A DNA stretch of 64,000 nucleotides from Pseudoscleropodium purum (lineage: Eukaryota > Streptophyta > Bryopsida > Hypnales > Brachytheciaceae). The notes beneath the pieces were generated by a model that was given only the letters and a program-made list of their open reading frames with translations, had not been told where the DNA came from and did not search any database. Below are positions 6,980-62,533 of this stretch, piece after piece (positions within the stretch are counted from its first letter, which is position 1; the number at the start of each line of letters is the position of its first letter). Where the stretch lies: assembly GCA_963969395.1 (NCBI GenBank), contig OZ017797.1, positions 19,344,001-19,408,000 of the forward strand. Reading direction: 5' to 3'. The translations under genes were made by a program, and so were the position numbers.

Positions 6980-8459
6980 TCATCACACATCCAAAGACGC
7001 CCTATACTCTAGTTTGGGCACTTGGGCCCTAGAATTGGGCCTTGGGGTTGGGCCCTGTCAAAGGATATGACCGCGTTTCCCAAGTGCACCCGGACCCGTG
7101 CATGTGGAAGCTTTGAAGGAAGGTCTATGCAACATTGGGCCTCAGGGGAAGCTCAAGCTTACGCTGTTAGCGTTCCCATTCTCACTCCATCGTCTCTCTC
7201 TTTCTCTCTCTCTCTCTCTTCCCCAATTTCGCGATGCACTAAGGTCTTGCGATCCAGTGCAGAGCGTGGCGGACTTTCTGCTCAAAGGTGGGGATTGACG
7301 GAAGATCCTTTGTTGTTCGTCTCTGCGCGGGCACTGATGGTTTGAGTTGTGCCGACCAAGGTGTGATTAGGGTTTCGGGTTCGGTTTCCTGCGTCGGTCC
7401 GAGTCTATGGGAGGATTTTTTTTATGGAAATTAGGGTTGGATGTGCGACGATGAGATCAGATTGAAATACAGGCCTCTGGGGGGTGGGTGGGGGGCGGGG
7501 AGTTTTGGAGTTGCCGGCGCTTTGTATTCTTATTTTTGGTTGTGTGTCGAATTTCTTGGGTTAGGTCTGCGCTTGGATGGGTGTTTGTGAATGGAGAGAT
7601 GGAGGCGATTTTGCTTGCTTGTAGAAAGGTTGTAGGAGAAGGTTATTGTGGTGATCGACTTCGTCTTGACCTAATTTTGGCGGTTGCAAGCGTCATCTCG
7701 AGGAATTTAGAGTGAGGAGCTTTTTGAGAAACCCTAATGGGATGCGATGGACTCCCTCCAGTTTCCCTGGCCTTTGCGAGTGTGCTATTTTTCCTTAGGT
7801 TTGATGCGTGAGTCTGGGGTTGATGCTATGAGGTGGATAGAAAAGAACAGTTGGGTGTTATGTCGATTTCTAGGATTTGAATTAGGTAGGCGTTCAGACT
7901 TCACTAGGTACGGTATGTGCTGGCTGTAGTTGTGATATCCAAGGAGCGTAATAATCGTTTTCAGCTTGCGGGTGTAGAGAAGGCGCTGCTAGATACGATA
8001 TCCGCTGGATTATCTGGAAATCAAATTGACTGATAGTTTCGTTATCGAAAGCCTCGTTTTCACGGTGGCTTCTCTAGGACCGTTTTCGATAAGTCCTAGT
8101 GGCGATCTGTTTTTCCTTCAAATGTTTTAGTGTCTTGGTTCTCTTTGCTTACTTTGGGGTCTGATGTTTATGTGATAGCGGACGCTTAAAATGGGCGTCA
8201 TGTTTTTTAGCAGTTTTAGTGGCTCATATGGGGATTTTCTTGTGTTTGATTTCACTTGTTATCGACCCAACCCGTGCACTGTTCTTCATTGATTCTGGGA
8301 TACAAATATAGTCCCGTCTGCATATTTTCACATCACATTAGTCATTTTAAAAGTATCAATTTCTGTCCTGTAGAGCTTAAATACTGTTTCGGTGTTTGGG
8401 TTACTGAAACTGTCTGAACTGTTTCTACAGACTCGAGCTGTTGCCAGTGAAGCGTAACA
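6980..8459 (+). promoter_or_regulatory. Promoter, 5' UTR and probable 5' UTR intron of the Nup50 gene
   Basis: GC content rises at about 6,960. A CT-rich tract (7196-7231) typical of plant 5' UTRs precedes a likely leader exon. A probable acceptor, GTTTCTACAG, ends at 8430, leaving 29 nt before the Nup50 ATG at 8460. Candidate donors are AAG/GTGGGG at 7288 and CAAG/GTGTGA at 7360, giving a leader intron of about 1.1 kb. Open frames of 60-107 codons in this interval look like non-coding leader or intron sequence. Confidence 0.5.
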
Positions 8460-9794
8460 ATGGCGTCAGAGGAGGAAAATTTTGCAAATGCAGCCTCAAA
8501 GAAGAGGGTAGCGTCGCGGCAGATATCCAAGGATGACGACCCAGACGTTGAAGAGGAGACTCCACTAGAAGGAGACACTTTTAGGAAAGCCCCAGATTCC
8601 GTACTTGCCAATAGACGTATCCTCAAAGTTCGACGGACAGGTGGGAATACCGGAGCAGCACCTGCAGCTGTTAACCCTTTCGCTTCAATTCGACTTGTTC
8701 CTCCTGCTGCTCAACCTACACCAGCTGCAGAACCATCTCCTGCAGAACCAACTCCAGCACAAGCAGAGATACTGCCTACTCCAGCAGATTCGCAGCCTGA
8801 AGTGTCCAGCGAGGTCCAAGCAGAGGGCAAGGAGGTCATCGCACCTGTGGCAAGGGAGGACTTGCCGCAAGAATCTCTTGAGGCATCGATTGAGCCAGCG
8901 ACTGTCACGGTTACGGAAACAAAGGTTGACACTGTAACTGCAGATGATAGAACAACGGTGTCTGAAACAGTGGTGGAGGTTCAGACGGATGCGAAAGCAG
9001 TAACGAATGGGAGTTCTACAGGTGTTGTTAGTCCTACTGCTCCAAGCTCAGAAACGTTTCAGCAAGCTTCATCCGCGAAGAATGCATTTTCTGCATCGTT
9101 TGGTACAGGATTTCCTGCCACAAGTACAGCCTTTGGAAGTAATCAATCGACTTTGGGTGGGTTTGGTTCCTTGAATGGGGGGTTCTCATTCGGTTCTGGT
9201 TCTGCATTTGGCTCGAGTTCTGCATTCGGCTCAAGTTCTGCATTTGGCTCAAGCCTCTTTGGATCAGGTGGCTTCGGGCAATCGGCGAACCCTGCTCTCA
9301 ATCCGGTTTTTGAGAAAACCAATGGGACCAGCAGTTTCCAGTTACCTGGTTCAGGTGCTTCAGCGTCTCCAGCTAGTGCAGCTCCGTCCACAACAAAGAT
9401 CACGCTGCAGGAGGTTCCTTTGGAAACAGGCGAGGAGAAAGAGAAGGCTGTGTTCTCTGCCGATGCGTCTCTGTTTGAGTTCCTTGATGGCGGGTGGAAG
9501 GAGCGGGGCAAAGGGGAGATCAAGGTTAGCGTACCGGAAGATCTGCAGAGGAAGTCTCGCTTGGTGATGAGGTCGAAGGGCAACTTGCGATTACTTTTGA
9601 ACGCCAACATTTTTCCTGACATGAAAATCACCAAGATGGACAACAGAGGGGTGACCTTTGTCTGTGCCAATGCAACTGCGGGTGGTAAAGAGGGGTTCAC
9701 GACGTACGCGTTGAAGTTGAGGGATCCTCAGATCGCCAAGGATTTCATGTCCACGGTTGAAGCCCACAAGGGGACTGCCACCAGTGCCGAGTGA
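8460..9794 (+). CDS. NUP50: Nup50-type nucleoporin with RanBP1 domain
   Basis: A single-exon protein of 444 residues, the usual size for plant Nup50. Residues 1-60 carry the Nup50 N-terminal motif: a KKRVASRQISKDD stretch, then a TFRKAP..VLA.RRI.KVRR segment, then NPFASIRLV at 72-80. In this family that region binds importin-alpha and Nup153-like partners. Residues 85-200 are Pro/Ala/Glu-rich linker. Residues 213-274 form an FG-repeat block with tandem AFGSSS units. Residues about 315-440 are a Ran-binding (RanBP1-like) domain ending in an ALKLRDPQIAKDF-type helix. The expected role is at the nuclear basket, helping importin-alpha/cargo release and recycling with RanGTP. The start is the first ATG after a putative leader intron. 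The frame is intact with no sign of decay. The missing coding introns are notable, but the leader intron argues against a retrocopy. Confidence 0.93.
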   Translation: MASEEENFANAASKKRVASRQISKDDDPDVEEETPLEGDTFRKAPDSVLANRRILKVRRTGGNTGAAPAAVNPFASIRLVPPAAQPTPAAEPSPAEPTPAQAEILPTPADSQPEVSSEVQAEGKEVIAPVAREDLPQESLEASIEPATVTVTETKVDTVTADDRTTVSETVVEVQTDAKAVTNGSSTGVVSPTAPSSETFQQASSAKNAFSASFGTGFPATSTAFGSNQSTLGGFGSLNGGFSFGSGSAFGSSSAFGSSSAFGSSLFGSGGFGQSANPALNPVFEKTNGTSSFQLPGSGASASPASAAPSTTKITLQEVPLETGEEKEKAVFSADASLFEFLDGGWKERGKGEIKVSVPEDLQRKSRLVMRSKGNLRLLLNANIFPDMKITKMDNRGVTFVCANATAGGKEGFTTYALKLRDPQIAKDFMSTVEAHKGTATSAE

Positions 9795-17065: not shown

Positions 17066-18097
17066 ATGGCTTTGCATGGATGTCTGGGGAGTAGTAGGGG
17101 TCGCAATGGAGGTCACAACGAGGGTCGTGGTGGGTGGCATGTTGATGTATTGGTTGAATCTTTGCAAGGGTCAGAAGACCAAATGTCAGAACACGAAGAT
17201 GGTGAAGATGGAGGCATGACAAGGAAGAGCGCAGCGGACGGTCAAAATTTTTACAAAAGTGAAGAAATACAACTCACATGGAGTGTCCTTGCCGTAAGCC
17301 AAGATCCTATTGTTGGGAAGCAACAAAAGCACGATACCTTTTGGTAGAGGATTTTTAGTCACTATGATCTGATTAGACCATCAGGGTATAGTGGTCTTCA
17401 TTCTTTGGAGTCCAAGTGGGGTCTTATTAAGCACGATGTAGCCAAATTCATTGAGATTTACAAGTAGATCAAGGCTATTAGCAAGAATGGGACAAGTGAG
17501 GCAGATTTGCAACGTATGTCAAAGGAATTGTTTAAGATGAAGCACCCTAAGAATTCTGACTTCAGCTATTTCCATTGTTGGCTCCTAATTCGAAGCCTCC
17601 CTTGTTGGGTAGATGGTTGGGTTGTGGATAGCACTCCCATGAAGAGGCTAGCTCCTTCCTTCAATGCTGAAGTTTCTGACCGTCACAGTGCTAGAGAAGC
17701 TGATTTGGACATAGACCCTAATGAGGCCCTACGTGTGCGTCCTCAAGGAACTAAGGCTACCAAGAAAGTCATCTCGGCTACAAAATTGCGAGAATCTGGT
17801 TTATTCAAACATGTTGCTGCCACCAATAGCATGGTAGCGGCCACATTGCGGAAGGTAGCTGGGTTAAAAGAGCAAAATCTCATTTTGTTGATGACCACCC
17901 CTGACATGCAAGGGTGTTCTTCCATGGCACAAAGATTCATTCGACTATGCCAAGAGGAGGAACTTGCAAAATTAGAAGCTCGACTTCAAGCTCATTGTGA
18001 GCAAAGGGCAATTGAGGCAACTGAATGAGAAGCTAAGGAGAAGGAAGCGGAAGCTACTCGTGTTGAAGAGCAGCATGAGTGCAACAAAACTCTATGA
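17066..18097 (+). pseudogene. PIF/Harbinger ORF1 (Myb/SANT-like, NAM-associated type), 3 in-frame stops
   Basis: One frame runs the whole length with stops at 17345 (TAG), 17465 (TAG) and 18026 (TGA). Across the stops the text matches the family pattern well: a W..VS.DP.VG..QK...FW helix region near 17,280-17,345, a second helix with KWG.IK.DV.KF near 17,409-17,460, and a (C)W..LR..PKW-like end near 17,575. It finishes with the charged NAM-associated C-terminal region (MTTPDM......F...CQEEELAKLEARL) near 17,890-18,020. In the family this protein helps the transposase bind the element ends. TAG from CAG and TGA from CGA are both single C-to-T changes, consistent with methylation-linked decay. 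Confidence 0.8.
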
Positions 18098-22060: not shown

Positions 22061-22854
22061 CCGCCAAGTTTCCATGATTCAAAACAATCAACTCTAAACT
22101 TAAAACCAAAAAAATTGAAACAGGCAGTAATGGTGAAGTGTTACTATGACAGAGCGAACAACGGACAATGGTAGAGAAGACCCAAAAAGGGACATGTGGC
22201 CCGCCAAAAGAGCATAAAGGTAAAATTATGATTTTGCAAGTGGGAGTTCAGTGGTTGACAGTGGGGGTCCCTCTTGAAGCAACCAGCCTCAAAGCAATGA
22301 GGGGCCACTCAATTTAATTCAGTGTGTCAGGTTGGACAACCACTACTGCAAATGCTCTAAACCCTAAGCACTACAACATCCACATTGCAAATGATGAACA
22401 ATTTTACTTCAAGCTAATGTTTTGTTCAAATATCTTCAATTCATCCCAAAAAATTATTGAGTCTTTAAAAGATAAAACCCATATTTTATGAAAATGGTGT
22501 CATTCAGTCATAAACTTGGCACTTTCACATTTAGATTATATAGTCAAAAATCCATACTTGCCCTAAAAATGAATGAAAAAATGGCTTGATATAGAATACC
22601 ACAATTGAAATGAAATTTCCCATATAATGTTTATATTCTTTTCAAACAAGTTGTTGAAGTTGATTCCACTTACAAGAATCAAAGGAATTAAATCCATTTT
22701 TTTTCCATTACCACAAGAGGGAATGGCTATAATTTCATATCTTGAAAATTTCCACAATTAATTTAAATTGACAGATAATATAAGTAGGAAACTCAAGGCT
22801 CTCATGGCCCCATACCATAGAACCATAGTTTTTGATTGGCATAGTGTAGAGAAA

Positions 22855-25022
22855 TGTAGTCTAGCTTTTACGTTTTTATAGAACTTTTTCGATTTTCTAT
22901 GACATTTCCTATATTATTTATATATATTTTGAGTATTTAGTGTTAAAGAAGTCCAAAGTACACTAAAATATCCAAAAAGCAAAAAGATACTTTAGTAAGT
23001 AGCTACAAACTAATAGAAAATGGCAAAAAGGCAAAGAAAAAGTTAAAGTAAAAGAAAAAGGAGAAAGATAAAGAAAAAGCTGAGGTTAAAAGAAAAAGAA
23101 AATGCAAATTAGGGATTTGGAGGTGCAAGTAGGAACGTTGTGTCGGTCACGACGAGTTGCAACTTTTCCGATCACCCCCGAATTTCTGATTTAATCCTTC
23201 CCTTTTCTCTCAATTTCTCTCTTCCCCCCGTGCTGTGTAATTACCCTGCGCTGTTCTTGCGCTGTCTATTGTTTTTCGGTGCTGTTCATTGTTGTCAAAA
23301 GTGATGTAATTTTACGTAATTTTTGCTGAGGAATAAAAATGCTGTTTCAATTATGCTGTTTTGAAATTGTGAATTGTGATTGTGTGCGTGTATGGATTTG
23401 AAGTTTTCAATCTCTAATGCCTCGCGTTGCAAGGAGTCTTGATTTGTGAGATTTGAGCGACTTCTGAGGGATTGGCGGATTGAGAGAATTTGATTGTTAG
23501 AGCATTATTCAGAGATCGTGACAGCCTGCTTGCACATTGGATTACGAGCGTTGAAAAATTCCTTGTTGCACCGGCGGAGGAGACACTGGCTTGAGTGGGC
23601 TGAGACCCCGAGCGGAGGCAACGCCTGATTGGGTGGTAGAACGGAGGAGCAGAGTGACTCGGTGAGTTTGGAGCATGATTTCGGAGAGAAATAGGGAGAC
23701 TGATAGGAAGAGAATCAAGGGTTGATTGACCAATTCGGCCAACAATCGAATTTCATTCGTCATTCTGGAAATTGGAAGATCGGCTGTTCAGGATTGTGAG
23801 ACTGTTTACAAGATTGCGAGATTGTTTGGGTGATCAAGCTGTTGTTGCAGGGAGTTGTATCACAGCGTCGAGTCAGACCTCGGTGGAAGAAATTCAAAAT
23901 TCAAATTCGTAATCTTTCGTGTGGATCCTCGTGTACGATTGATCAAGAGAACCAAGGGTATGAAATTGGTTGTGAAATTGGTTTGATTTCGCTGTAGAAA
24001 TTGCTAATTCAGTGATCTGTAGTGACAACTGAATTAGGGATTTGAATTGCAATCATCATCACAAACCAGGAATTGAAATTGGAATTCCGACTGGAATTGA
24101 AACCAAAAGGGAATCGTGAGTTCAGTAAGTGCAATGAACTCGTGCAATGTGGTCAAAATTTGAGAAATTGAAGGAAAAACTTGATTGCCGGAGGCAGCCT
24201 GCACGCCGAAGTTCAAGCGCGGACAGGCGCCGCTCAGGCAGACCGGCCCGCCCTGGGATACCCGCCTTGATTTGCCGATACCCCTTTCTGATTGATAACC
24301 GGACCGGGTTTGCCGATTGATACCCGTGAGGAAACCAGTGAGGGTATCAACTGGGTATTGACCGGGTACCGCGGTCTTGGATGTTTTAAACTAAACGTTC
24401 AATTAAAACAAATTTAAAATAAGGTCCAAATTTTTCGAACGGCCCTTGGGCCGTGACCCCTAATTGGGAACTAGATTTAAAATTCTATTAATTATTTTGT
24501 ATTAATTACTATTAGAATCTGCATTGAAATTACATATGTATGAAGTAAATTTGAATTTTGGGAATTGTAGGAATCGATTAACCCATGTATTGGCCAATAT
24601 TGGCCCTAGAGTTGTTGAGGGGCAACCCATTGTAAGACTTTCTAAACCCTTAAACTCTAAAGTTTTTGGAAATATTAAATACGTATAATTGTACTATTTT
24701 CAAAGTACTATAGTGGGCTGTACTAAAGTCTAAGTCCTGCATTGCATCCATACACAAGTCAGTCCAACTTGACATATTGTCCAGAGATATTGTCCTGAGC
24801 CTTAGAACACTAGACAGGACAGGGACATGCATGCTGAGTCTTTTATCTTATAATGGACTGTTTCTTGGGGTATTTAGTGGGAATAAAAAGGAATTTTTAT
24901 TCTATCTTCAAAACTTAAGTACAAAGTGACATTTGAACACACTACACTAACCTTACATAGATCATTCCCTGGTGTTCGAACTTGGTAGCGTTTGGAATAG
25001 GGATTCCAAAAACCTGACTACA
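22855..25022. mobile_element. Solo-LTR-like insertion, 2,168 bp
   Basis: Begins TGTAGTC and ends GACTACA, a perfect 7-bp terminal inversion with TG..CA ends. It is flanked by the 5-bp direct repeat AGAAA at 22850-22854 and 25023-25027. The unoccupied site, with one AGAAA at 44653-44657, is present in copy 2 of the host segment. No gag/pol frame and no second internal copy of the terminus are seen, so a solo LTR is the simplest reading. The 2.2-kb length would be long but within plant LTR range. A purine-rich tract (23031-23105) and a GC-rich block with repeated GATACCC motifs (24250-24390) lie inside. Confidence 0.75.
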
Positions 25023-25099
25023 AGAAACATATGTGCATAAGGCAAATTTGACACTAGTTTACAACATACTAGAACCTTAAATTCAATCTTTTTCATTTA

Positions 25100-25800
25100 A
25101 AGCCCTAAAGTCTTTTTTGTTTCCTTGGGAGACAAAATAGATTTCTAACATGCTCTAATGGTCTCAATATTTGTTGTAATTTTTTGAAACTTTCTGTGAA
25201 GATATAAAACACATGAATTTTGGGGGAGTATAATTTTTTATTTCAATTAGTGCCTGGAATAAAAAGTTATCGCACAATAAGTTTAAATTTTAGTTTGACA
25301 AGCAGAAAAAAAACCTCACAAAAAATTTTGAAATTTAAAATTTTTGATTGTCATGAATTATATTTTTATGTACATGGGAAGCTTTGATTCATTCCATTTA
25401 GATTTGTCACATGAGAAAGCTACGGACAATCTTATTTTTTGGGCAATCAAAGCATCTTTCTGAAAAAATAACTTGTAGGCTCATTTATGAATTCAATTTT
25501 CACAATTTTCAAAAAGAAAGTTTTACAAGGTTAAAATCTTTTGCTAGAACAATCTCAGTGTTGTGATTAGTGTATTTCAATTCCACCTTAAAGCTATTAA
25601 TAGTTTAGTTTTTCCTTCAATCTTGAACCTACCTTTAAGTCTTAATAATTTTTTTATGAGTAACCATTAAGTTAAATTTTTCTAAATCCTAGACCCTCAA
25701 CTTAATTTTTCAACATAAAAAATTAGAAGTGCAAAATCAATAGTTTAAAAATTTGAAGTTACGAAGATTCAAAGCCAAATTAATTATTATTTTAGAAAAG
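25100..25800 (-). repeat. Family A repeat copy, reverse, internally deleted
   Basis: Its start, AAAGCCCTAAAGTC, followed by a CCTTGGGAGACAAAATA block, matches 45722-46640 closely. It also matches, in reverse, the element at 47570-48498. It lies within the repeated host segment, so it predates the segment duplication. Confidence 0.55.
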
Positions 25801-25874
25801 CGTAGGTGGATAGTTTTGAATAAAATCACCTAAAGGACTATCTAAACAACCTCTCCAATATACATTAGACTAGG

Positions 25875-27386
25875 CACTACAAGAAAAAGGGGTGTTTTAA
25901 GTGAGTTTATAAGTATAGTCTTAGATATTAGATTTTAAGTAATGACCTTTAAAGAGATTTTCAACAAAAATTTACTAAAAATACTTTCACTCGGAGCAAC
26001 TCATGCTTCAAGAGATACTAGTTGAAGATTGGATGAGTAAAGTTTAGAGAGGTCCACTCCAAATTGGAGGGAAGACCACTCTCTACTCCAGCGGCGATAT
26101 CTTCGGCAATAAAGTCTACCTGAATATCACTGGGTATTAAATATTAATGTCAAAGACATCTATGGTGGGCATCCAATAGAACCAAGAACAAGGGAACACA
26201 TCATTGAACAATACGTAGTAGTCCAGCTTGTTGACATTGCACAAGAGAAGTAGCAACAAAATATTTATGTTCTTGCCACCGGCAAACACCTTGAACAAGC
26301 TCTTGACGTTTCCAATGGTGGTTGTCTTGTCAAAGGATAGTGTAACCTGAACATCGGCAAATACATAAATAAAAGTAGCTCAAGATATGAAGCATAATAC
26401 AATGCAGTAAAAATCAGAATCTTTTCTAAACCCTTTGCTTGCAAGCAAAGTTTACTAGTGATAGTGGACCTTCCAAGGAACTGAAGGCAGTAATTTCAGC
26501 TATAAAACAAAAGTAACTGCTGCAGCAGTCTGTCTATCTAGAACGTCACCACAATTGCTCTCCAAAAGAAAACTACTCATTGACTTGGAATCATATACTT
26601 TCAATTTCATACTGTGCACAATCACATCCTTCGTAATCTTTTTGGCTTGTCCTTTATCTACGACGACCTTCATTGTATCAAAGAATGGTATAGATCCAAT
26701 CTCCGGTCCTAGTTTTCTCACTCCAGCACTAAAGACCGCGGCCAATCCATGAACTCAATTGGTGATCGTCTTCAAACCATCCAGCTCGTGGTAAACTGTG
26801 TGCATTGCTACCATGTTTGCCAACAAAGCCTATCACAGAATCCTAGATACACCCCAAACCATCACTTTTCAACAAAACAAAATCAAAATCAAAATGCAGA
26901 GATTGATGCAATCCTAAACACCAATTCAAGTAGTCTCAGTCAAAATTCACAACATACTAATAAATAATTACTTGAGTGGTATAGATGTTGCTCATTGCCT
27001 TGTTACAATGAATGTGCTGCTTGCGAGTCTGCATGGCCATTTTCAAGCATGGCTTTCTAGCAGCATTGATACTCATACCAATGATCCTTCCAAGCATCAA
27101 ACGCTTGTATTCTTGGGATGTCGCAAGAATCATAGTGTGAGGTCCTCCATAGTCCATGGGAACTCCAAACCTTTGCGCAGACCCCACGACCATGTCAACT
27201 TCCAGCTCCCTTGGTGGTGTCAACAACATGAGTGACAACAAATCAGTCGCCATCACTACTTTCACCCCATGCGCATTCTTGATGAAATCCACATAATCGT
27301 GTATAGAGCCATCAATTACAAGATATTGCACCAGCACGCTCCTAACATCATTGCTTCTGTAGTCAAATTTCTTGTAATCCAATACA
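25875..27386. mobile_element. CACTA-type end followed by captured GLDC fragment
   Basis: CACTACAAGAAAAAGG at 25875 is a typical plant CACTA (En/Spm) terminus. It starts exactly where homology with the second host copy stops (TTAGACTAGG, then CACTA here, TTTT at 46733). That is what an insertion with a 3-bp AGG target would give. After 118 bp the GLDC-derived DNA begins. The opposite terminus (TTCTTGTAGTG next to AGG) was not found in the window, so the right boundary of the element is unknown. The end given here is only the end of GLDC homology. Confidence 0.5.
25993..27386 (-). pseudogene. Genomic fragment copy of GLDC (exon 1 end to exon 4 start, introns included)
   Basis: Colinear with 52684-54103 of the intact gene, in the same orientation. 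It covers the last ~420 bp of exon 1, introns 1-3, exons 2 and 3, and the 5' part of exon 4. Retained introns mean DNA-level copying, not a retrocopy. The copy lacks 6 bp in the NAHAHG region near 27,268, and its splice sites and frames are damaged. In a hand alignment of about 210 bp near 26,045-26,265, 18 of 20 differences are C-to-T or G-to-A relative to the gene. It has no start and cannot make P-protein. Sense or antisense RNA from it could in principle act on the parent gene, but nothing shows that it does. Confidence 0.93.
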
Positions 27387-38200: not shown

Positions 38201-39858
38201 GCAATCCATTTCTATCCAATGTTCCATTCTAGCAATCTAGGCTATTTTCTTTCCATACAAAAGAAATGAGTAGCAATTAATTATGGCGCAATTCCCAACT
38301 TTTTTGTGGCTCATTATGATTGGCTAATAAGACTCTCGATATTGCAACCAACCCTTGGTTGGATAGAGGAAGGCCTGCATCACCATTATGGAAGAAAGCC
38401 CATCTTTCACTAAAAAATTCACAATAATTCTATGTTGCGGAAAAAAAATCTGAAAAATATACAAACCTTCTACTGCCTATTGCTAAATATTAGAAAATTT
38501 ATCCTTTGGAGAACCCCCTTCTAGATACCAAAAACTCTTTAATTACCTCCCTTAGAGGACAAATATTTGTACTTATCCCTAGAACAAAATAGGAGCAAAT
38601 TTTTTCATTCCTCCTTGGCTAGTGGAATACAAGGTCAAAATATGAAGTGGCCTCAATGGGGTTCTTCTTCAAAGTTCCTCGAGAGTTTTGTTGTAGAGGG
38701 TTAAAGCTTGTGGCTATATTGTCATACTAACTTATTATGTTAGTTCTTCTCACCGCCAAATTAGGGTTTTACGCCGTGTTTTGTGTGCTTCATGAATTTC
38801 AATAGCAATCCTCGGCACCGGCCCTCACCATCCCCAGAGCTTGTCGTAGCCCCTCCCTCTCTCTGTCGCATTGCTTCTCTTCATTGCCTCTTTAAGATTA
38901 TATATTGTTAATAGGACGTTTATAACTCCACGTATGGGTGGTTTTACAATTTCAAAGAAAACTACTACAAAAATTCATTGAAATTACAACTTTAATCGGA
39001 AAATTGTAATTCCACTTGGATTTGATTTGTGAAATGGGCGCACACCTCTAAAAATAAATATTTGTCACTCTTGGAATTGACACTAAGATATTCAAATTGC
39101 TAATCGATTAGCCTTCAAAGGGATTGTTTGCCTTTGAAGAATTCCCAACAATGAAACTTGTAGCCCTGTGAGGAACAATGGCTAAAATTCAGCACTAAAA
39201 TAATATTTAAAAAATATTTGAATATTCAAAAAATAATCTAAAAAGGACATTCTAACATCAGTAACATGGTCACACTCATGCCACATTAGACCTAACAATT
39301 TTGTATTAATTTTAATATTAACTTCTTACACAAAACTTATAATATTAAAAAATAAATTATAATTGAATTACCCTGCACTAATCAAGCCTTGAAATTTACT
39401 AGCCAAAAAAAATTTGAATTTTTTTATTGGCGTGCGTTCCTTGCTCCTTTCTTGTTGTCTGAGATTCACAATCCTTTTTAGGGCTCATTTTTCTCCTAAT
39501 GCTAGTAATAAGCTAGTCTATCTTATTATCAATGGAAATTTTGGTGTGGGTATAGAGGTCTTAGTTTGTGTCTTTGTAGAATTGATACTCTTACATGTTA
39601 GTTTTGTCTCTAAGGTGCCTTTCACTATAATTTTGAGGTGGGGAAATGGACTCTTTTTTGAAGAAAACACCTCACATAAAGTAGATAAGCCTATTGCCAC
39701 TTTGATTTGCAATCTAAATATCTTGGGGTCAACTTCAATAAGGGCACATATAGTTTCACAAGTGGGTGCTTGTTTCATATATCAAACCCAAGTGCAATTA
39801 TAATTCTATCACCTAAAATTGTAATTTTTGTAAATTTTTGAAGTAATCTACCTTGAAA
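38201..39858. other. Spacer left of the hAT-like element
   Basis: AT-rich, with a short more GC-rich patch at 38,760-38,890 that resembles a plant 5' leader (TTAGGGTTTTACGCC) but is followed by no coding region. The open frames on both strands at 39414-39803 have no recognisable domain. Confidence 0.45.
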
Positions 39859-42800
39859 CAGGGTTGACGAATCTCAACGTCCGCCCCAAAATAGCGTCCG
39901 TTTTCCGGACGTCCGAACGTCCAGACGCAGCGTCCCTCCCACCGTCGGAAGGTGGACGCGCGGGGCGGGGCGGACGGGCAAGGCAGATGGGTGGGGCGGA
40001 CGAGAGGTGGACGGGCTGGGTGGACGGCCGGGGCGGTCGGGCATACAGATCAGACGGGGTGGACAGACAAGGCGGACGGGGTGGACTTCGCATTGCCATT
40101 AGTCATTAGAAAATTTTATATTGTTATGTAATTTGAATGTTACACAATCACAAATGAATGCATCCACGTAAAATAAGATGTACATATAAAAATATTTTTA
40201 TACGCAAATGAAAATATAGCATTTTTATATATAAATATATATGTATAAACAAAATACATGAAAACATAGTTCCAATAGCACTATTGAATCCTATACAATC
40301 TTTTTAAGATCTAAATCTTTCACATTCTTTTTTGTTTTTAAACAATGAAAGGACCATTGTTTTTAAAAAACAAAATTCTCCTCAAATCCTACTTTCCACT
40401 AGATGGACCACTACCTTCTCCCAAAACAAAAGGAAAATCTGCTGTACCGAGGAGTTTAGCAGATGATTGACGAGTTGACCGTTGTTGACTTGGACGGACT
40501 ATTCGCCCTCCAGATTGAACTTCGATGTCCACCTTATGAAATTGTTTCTTGGTTTCCGGAGAGAAGTCATCGTCCTCTTCACGCTTCCTTTTTTGTTTTC
40601 TTTTCGGTGATAAATCGACTTCGTCTGCCTTCAAGGTTCTCAAGTTGCTCTCCACACGATCCACCATCGCTTGAACAACTTCATCATCTCTTTTCCCTTG
40701 CCATACTGTGAGGCAGTCTCCATCCAATAGGAAAGCCTTCCAATGCCCTATAATATCGCCAATGCGCCTATCAAATGCTGCTGCCACATCTACAGATGAA
40801 TGTCTTGTACTTGTTAGTCCATTTGTATCGTAGACAGCACGAACTTTTGCAGCCTCTTCCAACTTCGACAATAGAAGGGCCCTACCTATGAGGGTGTGGT
40901 CGTATGCCTTATACTGCTCATCAAATTCTTTTCCATGGTTTACCTCCATCCAACTGTCTTCCGGTCCTCTCTCCACTTTTTTATCTGGAAAACGAAAGAA
41001 CTTTTCGTGTTGCAAGCTCCAATGTCCCCCCATGTTGCGACAAAATATTTCACGGGCCGTGTCATCTATAATTCCTCGAGTCCGCAATTCCACCTCTCTA
41101 TTGTGAGTCATCCATACATCCAAATCCAATGGTTGCTGAGATTCCTCGTATAAATCATGCCTCTGTTCATTTGCATTCCATCGGATTGGCTTCCCCCAAT
41201 GTTGATAATTTTGGAATTTGTACGACGCTTGATCAAGAGGAAGATTCCAACGATTGTACTCGTGGCCTGAAGGCATAGCTTCCAAGATACCAAACATTTC
41301 GTAGAACCTAGCACTCAATGGACTACGACACTCGGCACACACCGAACGAATGAGTGATGCTTTCACAATGCAAGTGACATGGAAAGTGTGGCGACATTGG
41401 CCCATGATTACCGCACCTTCCGGTCCGAAGAGGCCTTGGCAAAGGCTACAACAACCATCCAAGATTGGAGAGGCTAGATCACAAGCATGCACCACTCGCT
41501 TGTCTTTCACATTGATGTGTGCTGAAAGTGTGTTGTAAGGGACCCATCCTTCCTCTACTTCCAAGGCCCAATTGATGGGTGGAGCTTGGTCCTTCTTTGT
41601 GTGGTTTAATCGCTCAAACATGGCATCCATGTCTCCCCAACATGTGATCTCCGTATATCCCTTTGAAGGATATTGGTCAAACATAGTCTTGAACCAACTC
41701 AAAGAGCTTTGAATGGCATCGTAATTTTCATTCGATTCCATTGCCAATGTTTGAAGACCTGCCATTGCTCGAGATACTACAAAGGGTCTGTCTTGGAGTC
41801 TTTGTACCCATGCTAACCATCGAGACTCCAAGCCGCTAGATGGCATAAACTTCTTCAAATCCAAGCACAATTGCAATCGATTCAACTTGAATTCAACGAT
41901 TCCTTTTGCTTCAATTGCCTCCTCTAATTTATGCTTCAACTCTTCAAAGTCACAACTCTCCGTTTGTGTCTCCGCATTCACGTAAACGGATGAAAGCTTT
42001 TCCATTGATGGTTGTTGTGTCGCTTTTAACATGCTCATATCGTGACTTTCTTGTACATTCACAATGGCAGGGTTGTCACTTGCTTCGGCCTTATCAAAAG
42101 GAAGAGAGAGCTCATCTTCACTCTCTTGAGTCTCTTGACTGTCTCCGAGTACAATCACTGGTGAGATTGCAATCTCACTTGGATTTTTGGAGGTCCCTTG
42201 CAATTTTGCAATCCGTTTACGCATCTTCATCAACTCCTCTATTTGCCTCGATGATTGTTGATTTAAATGTTCAACCTCACTCTCCAAAGTCTTTAATTTC
42301 AACTCCAACACTTTGCACCTTGCTTCCACTCCTCCAAGGTCAGCAATTTTCTTCTCATATTCCACCAATTGTAGTATGTGAACATCTCTTTCTTCGAAAA
42401 GTGGTCCGAAAGTCTTCGTGAGATTCTGAAATGCTATAGCACCTTTCAACATCTCTGGTGCCATGAAAGAAAACTCCTTGGCCAAATTCATAAAAGTCGG
42501 AGCAACTTTCGCTAAAAATTCAGTTAACATCGTCATCTTGAAAGCTGTATCAAGTATATGTGCAACATTCTTTGGATCTGCAAGTGGACTCATTGGAACA
42601 ACAGTAGCACCATCATCGGGATTAGACGATTCGCCTATTTCTTCATGAAGGTTAGCAAACTGAACCGAGAGCTTCAAAAGATTTTCCAATTGTTTTGGAT
42701 TGGACATGTCTTGCAAAGTTATATAGGCATTAAAAATTAGTTTAGAAATATAGAGTTGGAATGAAAAAAATTATATATGCAATTAGCCAAATGTGCACAA

Positions 42801-43243
42801 TGTATGATATTCTACATTAAATTGAATACATTTTGCCCATATTGATTATGTTTGTATTTGTGTTGATCTTGATTTTTTAAATAGTATATATATATATTTG
42901 AAGTCACAAATTTTTTTTAGTTTGCCTTTTGAAAATGAATTGTAATTTTTTCATAGTTTCAAGACTATCATGGACTCGTGGTCAAACTTTATAATCTTTC
43001 AACTTATAAGAGACATTGTTTTAATAACAAATCGCGAACCATTGCACTTCATTTAACATTTAATTGTTTAAAGATTAAGGGAGTGACCGCGGGGTAGTTT
43101 GGGTAGGGTGGTCGGGGGAAATAGGGCCGTCTGGGCGGACGGGGCGGTCCCGGTCGACGTTGCGTCTGCCGGGACTGCGAATGTCAGCGGACGCTGCGGA
43201 CACAATGTTCACGTCCGGACGTCCGGACGTCGTGTCAACCCTG
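39859..43243. mobile_element. hAT-like element, 3,385 bp, carrying a RING-protein gene
   Basis: Inverted termini CAGGGTTGAC are flanked by a perfect 8-bp direct repeat CCTTGAAA at 39851-39858 and 43244-43251. The CAGGG-type ends and 8-bp duplication are diagnostic of hAT. Just inside both ends lie GC- and CpG-rich blocks (39859-40090 and about 43081-43243) rich in GGACGTCCG palindromes and GGGCGGACGG-type repeats, in stark contrast to the AT-rich surroundings. The only gene is the intact 772-codon frame at 40389-42707. No BED finger, RNase-H fold or hATC region is recognisable, so the element would need a transposase supplied elsewhere. The perfect TSD and intact frame suggest a comparatively recent insertion. 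Confidence 0.85.
40389..42707 (-). CDS. RING-type zinc-finger, coiled-coil protein carried in a hAT-like element
   Basis: An uninterrupted 772-codon frame without introns, starting at the ATG at 42707. Seen in order: an N-terminal helical region; a coiled coil at about 105-170 (KVLELKLKTLESEVEHL region); an acidic Ser/Glu linker to about 250; a second short coiled coil at about 255-285; and a Trp-rich region at 290-400. A RING-H2-like finger lies at about 420-460 with Cys420, Cys423, Cys438, His440, His443, Cys446, Cys457 and Cys460. Next is a long C-terminal region with Trp- and charge-rich stretches. The Lys/Arg cluster PKRKQKRKREEDDD around 707-720 looks like a nuclear localisation signal. 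RING fingers usually recruit E2 enzymes for ubiquitin transfer, so a nuclear E3 ligase is a reasonable inference only. The protein does not look like a hAT transposase. I do not recognise the full-length family. Confidence 0.8.
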   Translation of the reverse strand: MSNPKQLENLLKLSVQFANLHEEIGESSNPDDGATVVPMSPLADPKNVAHILDTAFKMTMLTEFLAKVAPTFMNLAKEFSFMAPEMLKGAIAFQNLTKTFGPLFEERDVHILQLVEYEKKIADLGGVEARCKVLELKLKTLESEVEHLNQQSSRQIEELMKMRKRIAKLQGTSKNPSEIAISPVIVLGDSQETQESEDELSLPFDKAEASDNPAIVNVQESHDMSMLKATQQPSMEKLSSVYVNAETQTESCDFEELKHKLEEAIEAKGIVEFKLNRLQLCLDLKKFMPSSGLESRWLAWVQRLQDRPFVVSRAMAGLQTLAMESNENYDAIQSSLSWFKTMFDQYPSKGYTEITCWGDMDAMFERLNHTKKDQAPPINWALEVEEGWVPYNTLSAHINVKDKRVVHACDLASPILDGCCSLCQGLFGPEGAVIMGQCRHTFHVTCIVKASLIRSVCAECRSPLSARFYEMFGILEAMPSGHEYNRWNLPLDQASYKFQNYQHWGKPIRWNANEQRHDLYEESQQPLDLDVWMTHNREVELRTRGIIDDTAREIFCRNMGGHWSLQHEKFFRFPDKKVERGPEDSWMEVNHGKEFDEQYKAYDHTLIGRALLLSKLEEAAKVRAVYDTNGLTSTRHSSVDVAAAFDRRIGDIIGHWKAFLLDGDCLTVWQGKRDDEVVQAMVDRVESNLRTLKADEVDLSPKRKQKRKREEDDDFSPETKKQFHKVDIEVQSGGRIVRPSQQRSTRQSSAKLLGTADFPFVLGEGSGPSSGK

Positions 43244-43251
43244 CCTTGAAA

Positions 43252-44029: not shown

Positions 44030-44731
44030 AAACTAGACTTATTTTGGACTATCAAGAATCAAAGCCAACATATTTTCTAAAATTTCACAAAATCTTCATA
44101 TTAACCAAAATGAACAAAAAACATAGTTTGAAATAACTTTGAATGTTTACAATAGTTTGAGATTCAGTTGTCAAAGGATGAACATCATTAACCCCTCAGC
44201 ACTACAACATCCATATTGCAAATGATGAACAATAATACTAAAAGCTAATGTTTTGTTCAAATATCGTAAGTTCATTTCAATCAATTTTTGAGTCTTTAAA
44301 AGATAAAACCCATATTTTGCAAAAATGGCAGCATTTCACAAACTTGGTACTTTCACATTTAGACTATGCAATCTAAAATTTTTACTTGTCCTAGAAATGA
44401 ATGGAAAAATGACTTAACATGCAATACCACCCTTTAAATGAAATTTTGTGTATAATCTTTTTTTTTAAACAAGTTGTTGAAGTTGATTCCACTTAGAGGA
44501 ATAAAGGGATTTCATTTTTTCTTCCATTACCACAAGGAGTGCCTGGAGTGGCTACAATTTCATAACTTGAAATGTCCACAATGAATTAAAATTGATGGAT
44601 AATATAAGTAGGAAACTTGAGGCCCCCATAGTTTTTGATTGGCATAGTCTAGAGAAACTTATGTCTATAAGGCAAATTTGACATAAGTTTAACAACATAC
44701 TAGAACCTTGAATTCAATCTTTTTCATTTAA

Positions 44732-45704
44732 ACCCTCACCACCCAAGGCCGTTTTGGGTTCCAAAACATCAATGCTTTTGAAGCAATATAGATGTATATG
44801 TCACTAAGTTATAAAGATCCTAATTGTACAATCTTGTAGTGAATATTTTGTAGATCATGTGAATTAAATTTGGAGTCATTTGACTGTATAGATTGGAAGA
44901 TTATAATGTTTTAGTGTTGAAGAAAGATGCTGAAATTTTCCTAGCAACACACTTGGAAGTGAAATTTGATTTTTAAACTTACTCAAATGAAAAAACTTGA
45001 AACTATAAAGTGATTCAAAACCAGCATACAAACACATTGAAGAAAAAAAATATCAATAAATTGACTCAATGTGTTTGCAAAATGGCTTGCAAATGTCAAA
45101 AAATAGGCAAGAAAAGTTGCAGAAAACACATCTAAGGCTAAACCTCCTTCTATTAAAATGCTTCTCAATCCTTCATAACTTTTTGGATAGATATAAAATT
45201 TTAGCTACACAAACTAGACTAGTATGCGCAACTTTCCCAAATTTTTTTTTATTGGAAACAGACATTATATGGAGAAGAAACAAGCCGCCAAAATTCACCG
45301 TAATTCAAAAATGATGGGATTATAAACTTCAAATTGCTTCCAAACATTCAAAACAACTTGGATTAATATGAAAATTTTACTACAATAACTAGACTTCAAG
45401 GGAAGCATAATCCAATAAGTTTTGTTTCAAAACAAACACTGGATGAAGAAGATACAACCCCTCAAAGTTTCAGCCATCAAATGTAGTTTGGTGGCCTCAA
45501 ATTGAACCTACGAACTTTGACTAACTTTCAAGAAATTAATACAACTTATATTGATCTGAAAATTTTACCACATAAACTAGAAGAGAGAGCCTAACTTTTC
45601 AATGAATTATATTGAATTTGGACATTGGATGCAAAAGTTACAACACTTTGAATTTGACTTGAAAGTCTGTGAGGACACTTTTAGTCCCCTTGAGTGTGAG
45701 GGGT
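44732..45704. mobile_element. Family B element, about 973 bp, ACCCTCAC..GTGAGGGGT ends
   Basis: Ends read TTAAACCCTCACCACCCAAGG and, inverted, TTAACCCCTCACACTCAAGG. A TAA (or TTAA) flanks each side. It is absent from the corresponding place in copy 1, where family A sequence begins directly. The right ~170 bp, in reverse, match 63830-64000, so it is a multi-copy family. No protein is encoded. TWA targets would fit Tourist/Harbinger-type MITEs, but a TTAA target cannot be excluded. Confidence 0.6.
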
Positions 45705-45711
45705 TAAATAT

Positions 45712-46640
45712 AAAAGAACTTTTGTCTCCTTGGGAGACAAAATAAATTTCCAGCAAGCTCTTATAGTCTCAATATTTGTTGTAATGTTTTGAAACTTTTT
45801 ATGAAGATAAAAAAACATATGAGTTTTGGGGGAGTAGAATTTTTTTTATTTCAATTTGTGTATAGGATCAAAAGTTATGGCACAATAAGTTTAAATTTTA
45901 GTTTGACAAGCAAAAAAAAAAACTCACATAAACTTTTGAAATTTAAAATTTAAAATTTTTGTTTGTCATAGATTATATTTTTATGTACTTGGGAAGCTTT
46001 GATTCATTCCATTTGGATTTGTCACTTGAGAAAGTTATAGACAATCTTGTTTTTAACCCAGCAATCAAAGCATCTTCTTGAAAAAATAACTTGTAGGATT
46101 CATTTATGAAATCAATTTTCACAATTTTCTAAAAGAAGTTGAATTTACAAAGTTAAATCTCTTGCTAGATCAATCTCACTATTGTGATTAGTATATATCA
46201 ATTCCATCTTAGAGCTATCAATGGTTTAGTTTTCCCCTCAATCTTGAACCTACTTCTAAATCTTAATAATTTTTTAATGAGTATCCATTAAGTTAAAATT
46301 TTTGTATATCCTAGATTCTTGATTCAATTCTTCAACATAAAAAATTAGAAGTGCAAAATCAATAGTGCAAAAATTTGAAGTTAAGGAGATTCAAAGCCAA
46401 AAACATCTAATCAAGTAAGGTGTGTAAAAATTTATTTTCTTCACTTTAAGTGCATATATCTTGCAATGTACATAAACAATGTTTTTGACATTTCTTTCAC
46501 ATATTTTTACACTAGTCTAGTGCAAGATTCTATAGTTAGATATGCAAAAAAAAAATTTTTTAAATGTTTTTGCTCTTTGCAATAAAAATGGCTGTTTTAA
46601 GTGTTTTTTGTTGGAAAAAAGACCTTAGAACTAGAGTTAA
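45712..46640 (-). repeat. Family A repeat copy, reverse
   Basis: Its reverse complement follows 47570-48498: the ATAGAATCTTGCACTAG region, CTTGCAAGATAT-type phrases, and a GAGATTGATCTAGCAAG region against GAGATTGTTCTAGCAA. It ends near GAGTTAA at about 46,640. Non-coding. Confidence 0.6.
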
Positions 46641-46732
46641 TTGAATTAATTATTATTTTAGGAGAGCACAAGTGAATAATTTTGAGTAAAATTGTCCAAA
46701 AGACCACCTAAACAACCTCTCCAATATTAGAC

Positions 46733-52600: not shown

Positions 52601-54901
52601 GGCATTCAGCTTCATCGTGCAGGAGCCCAAGGGAATCATGCTATGCACCAGTGACAAATCCTTCGCCTGCAACCTGTGAAGATATCGGAGCAGCTCATGC
52701 TCCGAGTGATACTGGTTGAAGACTGGATGAGTAAGGTATGGAGAGGTCCGCTCCAAGTTGGAGGGAAGACCACTCTCCACTCCAGCGGCGATATCTTCGG
52801 CAGTAAAGTCTACCTGAATATCAACAGGTATCAAATATTAATGTCAGAGACATCCATGGTGGGCACCCAACAGAACCAAGAACAGGGGAACGCATCATTG
52901 AACAGTACGCAGCAGTCCAGCTTGTTGACACTGCACAAGAGAAGTAGCAACAAAATACTTACGTTCTTGCCACCGGCGAACGCCTTGAACAAGGTGTTGA
53001 CGTCTCCAATTGTGGTAGTCTCGTCAAAGGACAGCGTAACCTGAACATGGCAAATACACAAATAAGAGTAGCTCAAGATACGAAGCAGAATACAGTGCAG
53101 CAAAAATCAGAATCTTTCCTAAATCCTCTGCTCGAAAGCAAACTTCACTAGTGACAGTGGACCTTCCTAGGGACTGAAGGCAGTTATTTCAGCTGTGAAA
53201 CAAATGTAACTGCTGCGGCAGTCTGTCTGTCTAGAACGTCACCACAATTGCTCTCCAAAATGGTCACATGACTAAGGTATGAAACTACTCACCGACTTGG
53301 AATCATATACTCTCAAGTTCACACCGTGCGCAGTCGCATCCTTCGTAATCTTCTCGGCTTGTCCTTCACCCACGACGACCTTCACTGTGTCAAAGAATGG
53401 CGCAGATCCAGTCTCCAGTCCTAGTTTTCTCACTCCAGCACTAAAGACCGCGGCCAATCCATGAACTCTGTTGGCGATCGTCTTCAAACCATCCGGCCCG
53501 TGGTAAACTGCGTACATTGCTGCCATGTTCGCCAACAAAGCCTGCCACACAATCCCAGATACACCCCAAACCATCACTTATCAACAAAACAAAATCAAAA
53601 CCGAAACGCAGAGATTGATGCAATCCTAAACATCAATTCAAGCAATTTCAGTCGAAATTCACAACATACTAATAAATAATTACCTGAGCGGTACAGATGT
53701 TGCTCGTTGCCTTGTCACGACGAATGTGCTGCTCGCGAGTCTGCATGGCCATTCGCAAGCATGGCTTTCCAGCAGCGTCGATACTCATACCAATGATCCT
53801 CCCAGGCATCAGACGCTTGTATTCTTGGGATGTCGCAAGAAACGCAGCGTGAGGTCCTCCATAGCCCATGGGAACTCCAAACCTTTGCGCAGACCCCACA
53901 ACCATGTCAGCTCCCAGCTCCCCTGGTGGCGTCAACAGCGTGAGCGACAACAAATCAGTCGCCATCACCACTTTCACCCCATGCGCATGCGCATTCTTGA
54001 TGAAATCCGCGTAATCGTGCACAGAGCCATCAGTTGCAGGATACTGCACCAGCACGCCGCTGACATCCTTGCTACTATAATCGAATTTCTTGTAATCCGA
54101 CACGATCACGTTCAAGCCGAGTCCATCCGCGCGCGTCCTGCACACCTCAATAGTCTGCGGGTGGCAATTGTCGGCAACCAAGAAAGTTTTCTTCCTACCA
54201 CGCGCAATGTTGCTACACATTGTCATGGCCTCAGCCGCGGCGGTGCCTTCGTCCAACAAGGAAGCATTCGACATGGGCATGCCCGTGAAATCGGTGATCA
54301 TGGTTTGGAAATTGAGAAGTGATTCAAGCCGCCCTTGAGCAATTTCGGCCTGGTAAGGCGTGTACTGCGTGTACCATCCCGGATTCTCCAGAATGTTGCG
54401 AAGAATCACGGGCGGGACGTGCGTGTCGTAGTATCCCATGCCAATGTACGATCGCATCACCTTGTTCTTGTTCGCCAGCATCTTGAAATGCGCCAGCATC
54501 TGGCTCTCCGTCAATCCCTCGGCGTACTTGCTCAGATTCAGATCGGGGCGGCGGATGGACTTAGGCACGGTGGCATCGATCAGCGCGTCCATGCTGGCGA
54601 AGCCACAAGCCTCCGCCATCACCTTCTGCTCCTCCACGGTGGGACTGTTGTGGCGCCGCTGAAAGGAGTCGCTCGGCTTCAACGCCTCGACGGAAATGGC
54701 GCGCGCCCCAAGCGGGAACTCCAAGATGCCATAGCCGCCACGCTCGCCACGCAGCAAAGACGACGAACCGGCAAATCCTCGACGCGCGCCAGTCGCGGCA
54801 GAACCTCGCAATGCGGAGCGGGAACCCAAGGAGGAAGTCGAAGGCGCACGAAACGCGAGCTGCACGAAACGCTTCACCAGCTGCTGCTTCGCACGCTCCA
54901 T
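49327..54901 (-). CDS. GLDC: Glycine decarboxylase P-protein, mitochondrial, 14 exons
   Basis: Pyridoxal-phosphate subunit of the glycine cleavage system. It decarboxylates glycine and passes the aminomethyl group to H-protein lipoate in the mitochondrial matrix, the central step of photorespiration. Exons (high to low): 54901-53684, 53541-53293, 53040-52963, 52813-52517, 52341-52216, 52067-51882, 51578-51465, 51292-51140, 50983-50795, 50687-50610, 50495-50370, 50151-50053, 49934-49817, 49418-49327. All have GT..AG borders and the joined frame is exactly 1,040 codons, the usual plant length. The first ~65 residues are an Arg/Ser/Ala-rich mitochondrial presequence. The PLP-binding Lys is about residue 776 in HLNLHKTF, followed by the glycine-rich GGGGPG loop. 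[14 protein letters not shown] and [14 protein letters not shown] are further family signatures. The start is the first ATG after an in-frame TAG. No defects seen. A decayed partial copy lies at 25993-27386. Confidence 0.97.
49555..49623. repeat. (CA)n microsatellite with C and A runs in GLDC intron 13
   Basis: About 25 CA units follow a C-rich stretch and precede a run of 13-14 A. It lies in the last GLDC intron, between exons 13 and 14. Open frames through it are artefacts. Confidence 0.95.
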
Positions 54902-55635
54902 CGCGAGCAACTACACCCCTCAATCCACACACAACACTACCGCAACGCCGCAATCCAAACAGGGAGAAAGCAGTGGCAATGGGAAATGCAAACCCACCGC
55001 ACAAAATATATGAAATTGGCTAGGTGTACGAATGGATTAGACACAAGGAATGGAATGGACACGAGTGAGAAGGCCAGGGGGGATGCCAAAGGATTAGCTG
55101 GGGCAGGCGGGCTGCACCCAAAATGACGACGACAACCTCTAAACTCCTGCGGCAGACACGCACTCCTGGCTCCTAGAGAAACCACAGCCAGCCAAGGCTC
55201 TCCTCTATCAGAAAAGGAATGCAGAGCCAGGGCTTTTCAATCCTTTGTCTGCGTCGCCACTCACAAGACTAGCCTGAGACTCCCGACGACCGACTTTTTC
55301 CAACCAGGAAAAAGAAAGAAAGAATGAGAATGCCTGGCGGGATGCACTCTGCCTCCCAATTAACATAAGGCTCCCGCCGCTCTCGCCTGATCTGGTGCTT
55401 GTGTGGATCTGAGTCTCTGGCCGGGCAGCGGCGGGCAGCCCACGACGAAATCCCGAGATCCAACAAGAAACCACCCTGAAAAACGCAGAAAAAAGTAAAG
55501 TAAGTCCTTGACTTTCGTCAGTATCATTTTGTTTTTGCAATTCCTTTTCCAGCTTCGTGGTGCTCGCTGCTGTGAAGGCAGTCAGTCGTAAGTGTTAGCC
55601 AGGGTGTGCATTACTGTTTCTGCTTCGTTGCCACC
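54902..55635. promoter_or_regulatory. Divergent promoter region between GLDC and the CPBP protease gene
   Basis: Only 734 bp separate the two start codons. On the minus strand, GCCAATTTCATATATTTTGT (55001-55020 complement) offers a CCAAT motif and a TATA-like TATATTTT about 100 bp upstream of the GLDC ATG. No clear TATA was found for the CPBP gene, whose ATG sits in a strong GCCACCATGGC context. Long open frames here are non-coding. Confidence 0.45.
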
Positions 55636-61486: not shown

Positions 61487-62533
61487 ATGGTGAGCCATGG
61501 GATTCTCTGGATCTTCACATTTGCCGTTGCAGCCATGTCCGTTCGCGTACTGGCCGGATCTGCAGCTACCGATCTTGACGATGTCACAGCATCGCTTCCT
61601 TACCGTCCTTTCCGGCCATGGCCAGGGAATATAGCCCACACGTTGGAGTCCAAGAGACTCGTCCAAGAGCCTCTCGTCAACATGCAATACCACATGGGGC
61701 CTGTCCTGACCTCCGCGATCCACGTCTACATCATTTGGTACGGGAAATGGCGTGCCACCCAGAAGAGCATAATCCGTGACTTCCTAAGTTCAATTTCGTC
61801 TCCCTCCCAAGTGCCCGGCCCATCGGTGCAGCAATGGTGGTCCATAGTGCAAACCTACACAGACCAAACAGGCGCCAACATCAGTGCTTCCATAGTAATT
61901 GCAGGCGAGCACATCGATCGTAACTACTCCCACGGGAAAGTGCTGTCTCGTCTGAGTGTGCAAGAGGTCATCCGGAGCGCATTATCAGAAAACAAAGGCA
62001 CCCTCCCGGTGAACACGAAAGGGGGCCTCTACATGGTGCTCACGGGCGAGGATGTGATGATGCAGGACTACTGTCGAGCGGTCTGTGGGTTCCACTACTT
62101 CACCTTCCCTGCCAAAGTGGGCTACACGCTGCCTTATGCGTGGATTGGAAACTCCGGGAAGTCGTGTCCTGACGTTTGTGCTTTCCCGTTTGCCATCCCG
62201 AGCTACATGGCTGAGGCCATGGCGCCTCTGAAGAGCCCGAATAATGATGTGGGCGTGGATGGCATGGTGAGCGTGATTGGTCACGAGCTGGCGGAGATTT
62301 CCAGCAACCCGCTCATCAATGCCTGGTACGCAGGTGAGAATCCCTCTGCTCCGAATGAGATTGCGGATCTCTGTGAAGGGATGTACGGGACGGGTGCTGG
62401 AGGGGGCTATCCAGGCTCGGTGGCGGTGTCCAAGTTCGGCGCCAGCTATAACATGCACGGCGTGCGAGGGCGGAAGTTTCTTGTGCAGTGGATTTGGAAT
62501 GCCGATATGAATGCCTGTCAAGGGCCTCACTGA
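61487..62533 (+). CDS. EXORDIUM-like / phosphate-induced protein 1 (PHI-1) family secreted protein
   Basis: An intact single-exon frame of 348 codons, slightly longer than the typical ~310-340 of the family. The ATG follows an in-frame TAG directly. Residues 1-23 are a signal peptide (hydrophobic core, then VLA/GS). The mature part has the family signatures: YHMGPVL near 68-74, IHVYIIWYGKW near 78-88, WWSIVQTY near 117-124, SWIGN-like YAWIGNSG near 217-224, the C-x3-C pairs at 196/200 and 227/231, and GHELAE.SSNP at 265-274. Family members act in the apoplast or cell wall and promote growth under brassinosteroid or low-carbon signals; none has a proven enzymatic activity. The intronless structure is normal for the family. 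The 5' leader upstream (61,015-61,486) is open but lacks conserved sequence. Confidence 0.94.
   Translation: MVSHGILWIFTFAVAAMSVRVLAGSAATDLDDVTASLPYRPFRPWPGNIAHTLESKRLVQEPLVNMQYHMGPVLTSAIHVYIIWYGKWRATQKSIIRDFLSSISSPSQVPGPSVQQWWSIVQTYTDQTGANISASIVIAGEHIDRNYSHGKVLSRLSVQEVIRSALSENKGTLPVNTKGGLYMVLTGEDVMMQDYCRAVCGFHYFTFPAKVGYTLPYAWIGNSGKSCPDVCAFPFAIPSYMAEAMAPLKSPNNDVGVDGMVSVIGHELAEISSNPLINAWYAGENPSAPNEIADLCEGMYGTGAGGGYPGSVAVSKFGASYNMHGVRGRKFLVQWIWNADMNACQGPH

Follow-up and report, generated by a model that had tools for sequence, protein, structure and literature searches.

Anatomy of the element

Within the analysed window, 64,000 nucleotides of contig OZ017797.1 from the moss Pseudoscleropodium purum, positions 39859-43243 form a 3,385-bp unit that carries a RING-H2/coiled-coil reading frame between transposon-like ends. 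The unit starts and ends with 10-bp perfect inverted repeats CAGGGTTGAC (39859-39868 on the forward and 43234-43243 on the reverse strand) and is flanked by a perfect 8-bp direct duplication CCTTGAAA (39851-39858 and 43244-43251). Its sole long frame runs uninterrupted over 772 codons on the reverse strand (40389-42707). A preliminary description of the locus had reported these ends, this duplication and this frame, and direct reading together with a pair scan bore all of them out. The scan searched the window for 8-bp direct repeats outside and inverted ends inside, at a spacing of 100 bp to 15 kb, with 60 Markov sequences as null. It returned three pairs with ends of at least 8 bp, compared to 0.42 expected per Markov sequence, and 39859-43243 was the sole pair in the window with 10-bp ends.

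Short inverted ends of hAT elements are of the CAGGG type. Ends of this type are found here together with an 8-bp target-site duplication, as in hAT elements. An autonomous hAT would in addition encode a hAT transposase. In the sole long frame, Pfam revealed only RING-type, coiled-coil and chance-level matches and no domain of a hAT transposase, and this frame thus does not provide the transposase. We conclude that 39859-43243 is, by its anatomy, a non-autonomous hAT-type element; the earlier proposal of a hAT-type element with a RING gene and no transposase is supported in this respect.

The element has a near-symmetric order, in which a GC-rich end and an AT-rich stretch lie on either side of the gene. 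The left GC-rich subterminal region (39859-40090, 68.5% GC) contains 12 copies of GGACG/CGTCC (mononucleotide-shuffle mean 1.1, maximum 6), and the right one (43081-43243) contains six (mean 0.6, maximum 4) as well as the palindrome ACGTCCGGACGT. The interior holds only two copies. These arrays are probable transposase-binding regions. The AT-rich stretch beyond the RING stop codon (40091-40388, ~23% GC) is a candidate 3′ untranslated region, and on the other side of the gene an AT-rich leader (42720-43080, ~24% GC) was not matched to the N-terminus of any relative by tblastn.

The RING-H2 frame is truncated at its 5′ end

Two protein searches, each of which scored only the 7,993-7,994 candidates with most shared words, yielded 14 and 17 rows. 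Since 12 of the 17 rows were already in the first search, this corresponds to 19 distinct relatives among the candidates scored. Nine of the 19 (P0001, P0003, P0004, P0006, P0007, P0008, P0010, P0011 and P0014) are full length with 1,039-1,140 residues, and all nine are frames without introns. In the alignment these proteins start about 300-350 residues ahead of the window frame. Using tblastn with 14 relatives, we found the N-terminal 300-350 residues to be absent from the whole window. Homology to P0002, the closest relative scored (96%), ends at 42719, 12 bases 5′ of the ATG and at residue 299 of P0002, and the coding part upstream of this boundary (42719-42720) is missing. The tblastn alignments of P0001, P0004 and P0005 continue weakly to 42752. 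The C-terminus of the family and its stop codon are present in the window frame. By comparison with its relatives, the window frame therefore corresponds to the C-terminal two-thirds of the coding region of a ~1,100-residue protein, and the gene is not intact as had been proposed, although its frame is open. Other members of the family are also incomplete: P0002, on a 49 kb contig, shows a frame change at its own residue 807, while P0017, with 295 aa on a 248 kb contig, and P0019, with 321 aa on an 83 kb contig, are fragments. One relative, P0018, is filed under a metagenome-assembled genome of Bacilli and is probably eukaryotic contamination of that assembly.

The preliminary description had also noted a complete RING-H2-like finger, which lies at residues 420-460 (41328-41450, reverse strand). 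Pfam supports this finger, although it scored the window copy at 23.9 bits, below the curated cut-off of 27, while relative P0001 reached 27.9 bits with one model. A sequence search of solved structures returned mainly RING-H2 proteins, and none of the eight C3H2C3 zinc ligands that define a RING-H2 finger (residues 420, 423, 438, 440, 443, 446, 457 and 460) varies among the 15 proteins aligned. AlphaFold models were poor, with a mean predicted local distance difference test score (pLDDT) of 50.2 and 53.6; in the latter model the score rises to ~80 over residues 111-160, within a predicted long helix or coiled coil (residues ~45-172, 42192-42575, reverse strand). Fold searches gave nothing firm besides the RING, and Pfam found no named domain in the family beyond the RING and weak coiled-coil matches. 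A basic cluster, PKRKQKRKR (40581-40607, reverse strand), we take to be a nuclear-localisation-like motif. RING, coiled coil and basic cluster together point to a probable role of the full-length protein as a nuclear ubiquitin ligase. The RING-H2/coiled-coil family is old and well conserved.

Apparent decay of the window copy

We compared the window copy with P0002 over their 505 shared residues and found 18 differences; positions past residue 505 were left out, as P0002 is frameshifted there. With P0001 as outgroup, 14 of the 18 could be assigned to the window branch. The four others are positions 36 and 156, where P0001 backs neither state, and 396 and 411, where P0001 agrees with the window. 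The branch leading to the window copy is longer than that of P0002 (0.032 vs 0.0065). Of the changes on the window branch, 13 of 14 are C>T or G>A, in CHH (8), CHG (4) and CG (1) contexts, where H is A, C or T. Four of 12 changes fell in columns conserved in at least 60% of the relatives, in line with the 34% expected by chance (of the 13 C>T/G>A changes, position 168 was omitted because too few sequences cover it). The changes include T434, P480 and P495, in columns that are 79-100% conserved.

A dead gene copy within the same window served as control. The fragment at 25991-27380 is an 87% copy of part of the glycine decarboxylase P (GDC-P) gene at 52685-54098, and 119 of its 152 changes are C>T/G>A, with 10 in the reverse direction. 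The change rates were.33 in CG,.30 in CWG (W is A or T, i.e., CAG and CTG),.20 in CCG and.085 in CHH contexts. The window copy of the RING gene thus seems to be decaying by deamination-type mutation, as expected of silenced DNA that is presumably methylated, and it probably makes no selected product any more.

Loss of CAG and CTG at silent positions

Of the 16 trinucleotide classes of the form N-W-N, none is as depleted in the frame as CAG/CTG (32 vs 75.7 expected), and CWA and TWG, which arise from it by deamination, exceed expectation (1.28 and 1.25). The loss was strongest at the silent codon phases, with 5 vs 29.6 expected at phase 0 and 4 vs 10.1 at phase 2. For comparison we used three host genes of the window, encoding a NUP50/RanBP1-domain protein (8451-9794, forward strand), part of GDC-P (53669-54910, reverse strand) and PHI1/EXORDIUM (61487-62533, forward strand). 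The identity of these genes indicates that the host is probably a land plant. Their CAG/CTG ratios are 0.85-1.05 at phase 0 and 0.67-1.29 at phase 2. At the non-silent phase the frame shows a smaller loss (23 vs 37.7 by codon shuffling), and the host genes are undepleted; the phase-1 ratio of 0.96 in the frame is conditional on the protein and alone no demonstration of selection. The effect is also seen in codon choice. Leucine is encoded by CTG in 0 of 73 cases in the frame and in 23 of 82 in the host genes, and glutamine by CAG in 5 of 39 and 25 of 44, respectively. When decay was simulated at the missense load of this copy (~14), only ~5-6 of 63 CWG sites were lost. Consequently, most of the CAG/CTG depletion should predate the split from P0002. 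These data suggest that the gene lineage has long resided in CHG-methylated, repetitive DNA while its protein was kept. Active avoidance of CWG is an alternative to such a methylation history.

Recent capture of a whole gene, as initially put forward, is not supported, for two reasons: the 5′ third is absent, and the CAG/CTG loss exceeds what this copy's branch could have accumulated.

Across the window (1-64000), likely transposon blocks can be told from gene blocks by their CAG/CTG depletion: per kb, the Markov ratio falls as low as 0.05 in the former and is near 1 in the latter, at 8-12 kb and 49-64 kb. The depletion correlates with the observed/expected (o/e) ratio of CpG (r 0.72) and can be used, from sequence alone, as a map of methylation history.

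Origin of the element and its cargo

Taken together, we lean towards the reading that 39859-43243 is a non-autonomous hAT-type element with a 5′-truncated, fading copy of a gene from an old RING family that probably resided in methylated repeats. A hAT transposase made elsewhere would bind the GGACG arrays and cut and paste the unit, and transposition would have left the 8-bp duplication that we observe. Either an internal deletion or a partial capture, no later than this insertion, may account for the missing 5′ third. A transposon-resident gene is a likelier donor than an ordinary host gene, because the silent CAG/CTG loss suggests a long residence in CHG-methylated, repetitive DNA. After the split from P0002, the copy would have drifted under methylation-type mutation, in line with the observed spectrum.

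Several observations weigh against this reading. The codon GAG is used in 31 of 69 cases in the frame and in 46 of 65 in the host genes, so that part of the codon difference reflects a general leaning to A/T third bases. Furthermore, CpG in the frame reaches 0.57 and 0.65 of expectation at the silent phases, which is close to NUP50 (0.69 and 0.62), while PHI1 (0.82 and 0.69) and GDC-P (1.01 and 1.08) lie above it. The overall CpG o/e of the frame, 0.69, is higher than that of 28 of 30 other low-CWG kilobases (0-0.57), and the two with higher CpG take in some of the GC-rich ends of the element itself. These ends show neither CpG nor CWG depletion. The GDC-P copy lost CG and CWG equally fast, yet the frame keeps its CpG. 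Because CpG in the frame does not follow the transposon pattern, the support for a methylation history is only half complete, coming from CWG and hardly from CpG. In addition, when neutral decay was simulated (13 or 14 missense changes, four settings), a frame free of stops over 772 codons survived in only 17-33 of 300 runs (6-11%), a figure to be read with the fact that the locus was itself picked for its open frame. Finally, a single element is the basis of all observations.

A tentative possibility is that RING genes regularly lie inside these ends, as a dedicated RING transposon family, and that the window copy is a deletion derivative. The accessory gene would aid the element, for instance in withstanding host repair or silencing, and the transposase would act in trans or come from longer copies. 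The age of the protein family with its invariant zinc ligands, the concentration of CWG loss at silent positions, the near-symmetric layout and the rarity of a surviving open frame under neutral decay all speak for such a family, as do the nine full-length intronless relatives. However, the predicted-protein collection probably favours intronless genes, so that the lack of introns is weak evidence; moreover, the ends occur once in the window and their pattern is unmatched in viral_contigs. A more specific version, rather doubtful as a joint claim, holds that a full-length gene for a nuclear RING-H2 ubiquitin ligase has long accompanied a plant hAT-type lineage as its own accessory and aids the element, the window copy being a deletion derivative. 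Selection would keep the protein, silent CAG/CTG would have been lost to CHG methylation or in evading it, and the ligase might help by ubiquitinating, for example, silencing or repair factors near the GGACG arrays.

We consider it unlikely that the element is an ordinary Pack-hAT that recently captured part of a normal RING gene of the host. Elements with captured coding DNA are known from maize and rice (PMC8903248), and a 5′-truncated frame fits a captured fragment. Nevertheless, the CAG/CTG depletion of the frame is not shared by the window's three host genes, the only controls, and goes beyond what decay of the copy itself would produce. It is very improbable that the copy is expressed and selected as a truncated gene, e.g., for a dominant-negative or regulatory RING protein. 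The preliminary description had linked the open frame to selection, and this holds at best weakly: a frame open over 772 codons survives in only 6-11% of neutral runs and the RING ligands are kept, but the missense changes look unconstrained, being deamination-type in 13 of 14 cases and blind to conservation (T434, P480, P495). Chance pairing of ends around an unrelated RING pseudogene is scarcely credible. Pairs with 8-bp ends do arise in Markov sequences (0.42 each), and the window has two others, but this is its only pair with 10-bp ends, and GC-rich motif arrays lie on both sides.

Other features of the window

The decayed GDC-P fragment (25991-27380, 87% identical, C>T-decayed) is perhaps another captured gene fragment. 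It adjoins a repeat that is shared piecewise between 22358-25861 and 44189-46727, and no flanking element ends could be assigned to it. A further frame at 17468-18028 gave a weak match to a NAM-associated domain (E 0.009, below cut-off) and may be what is left of an accessory protein of another transposon.

Comparison with known systems

Ac/Ds-type hAT elements have CAGGG-type ends, an 8-bp duplication and short repeated subterminal motifs. The window element shares all three, but differs in that no transposase remnant was seen, its motif is GGACG and its ends are GC-rich. Pack-hAT elements belong to the Pack-TYPE transposons described in maize and rice, and like them the window element combines hAT-type ends and an 8-nt duplication with coding cargo and no transposase (PMC8903248). 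It stands apart from them in its cargo, a long open frame that differs in composition from the window's three host genes. RING fingers are known from Chapaev and Transib-RAG1 transposases, and a 2015 paper states that no other known transposable elements encode them (PMC4411706). The window element resembles these in being a DNA transposon that encodes a RING finger, whereas in its RING protein no transposase domain was seen.

A search of part of the literature found no hAT element with a separate RING gene. If it is true that RING genes travel with these ends, they would represent a stand-alone ubiquitin-ligase-like accessory gene of a plant hAT transposon, and the use of the ubiquitin system by transposons against silencing would become testable. 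Even otherwise, the frame belongs to a conserved family with 19 database relatives, in which RING and weak coiled-coil matches are all that Pfam names. With the silent-site CAG/CTG test, moreover, there is a means of reading the methylation history of a gene from one sequence.

The VANC protein of VANDAL transposons is not known to be a RING protein. It is a transposon-encoded protein that acts on host silencing, and its target motifs are repeated in the element, which makes it a possible analogue of the window RING protein with its predicted function (PMC5735166). Likewise, retrotransposons took up DNA methyltransferases (PMC5890265), again a chromatin-related gene on a transposon, although the transposon class and the enzyme are different. 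Both cases indicate that transposons can carry chromatin-acting accessory genes (PMC5735166, PMC5890265).
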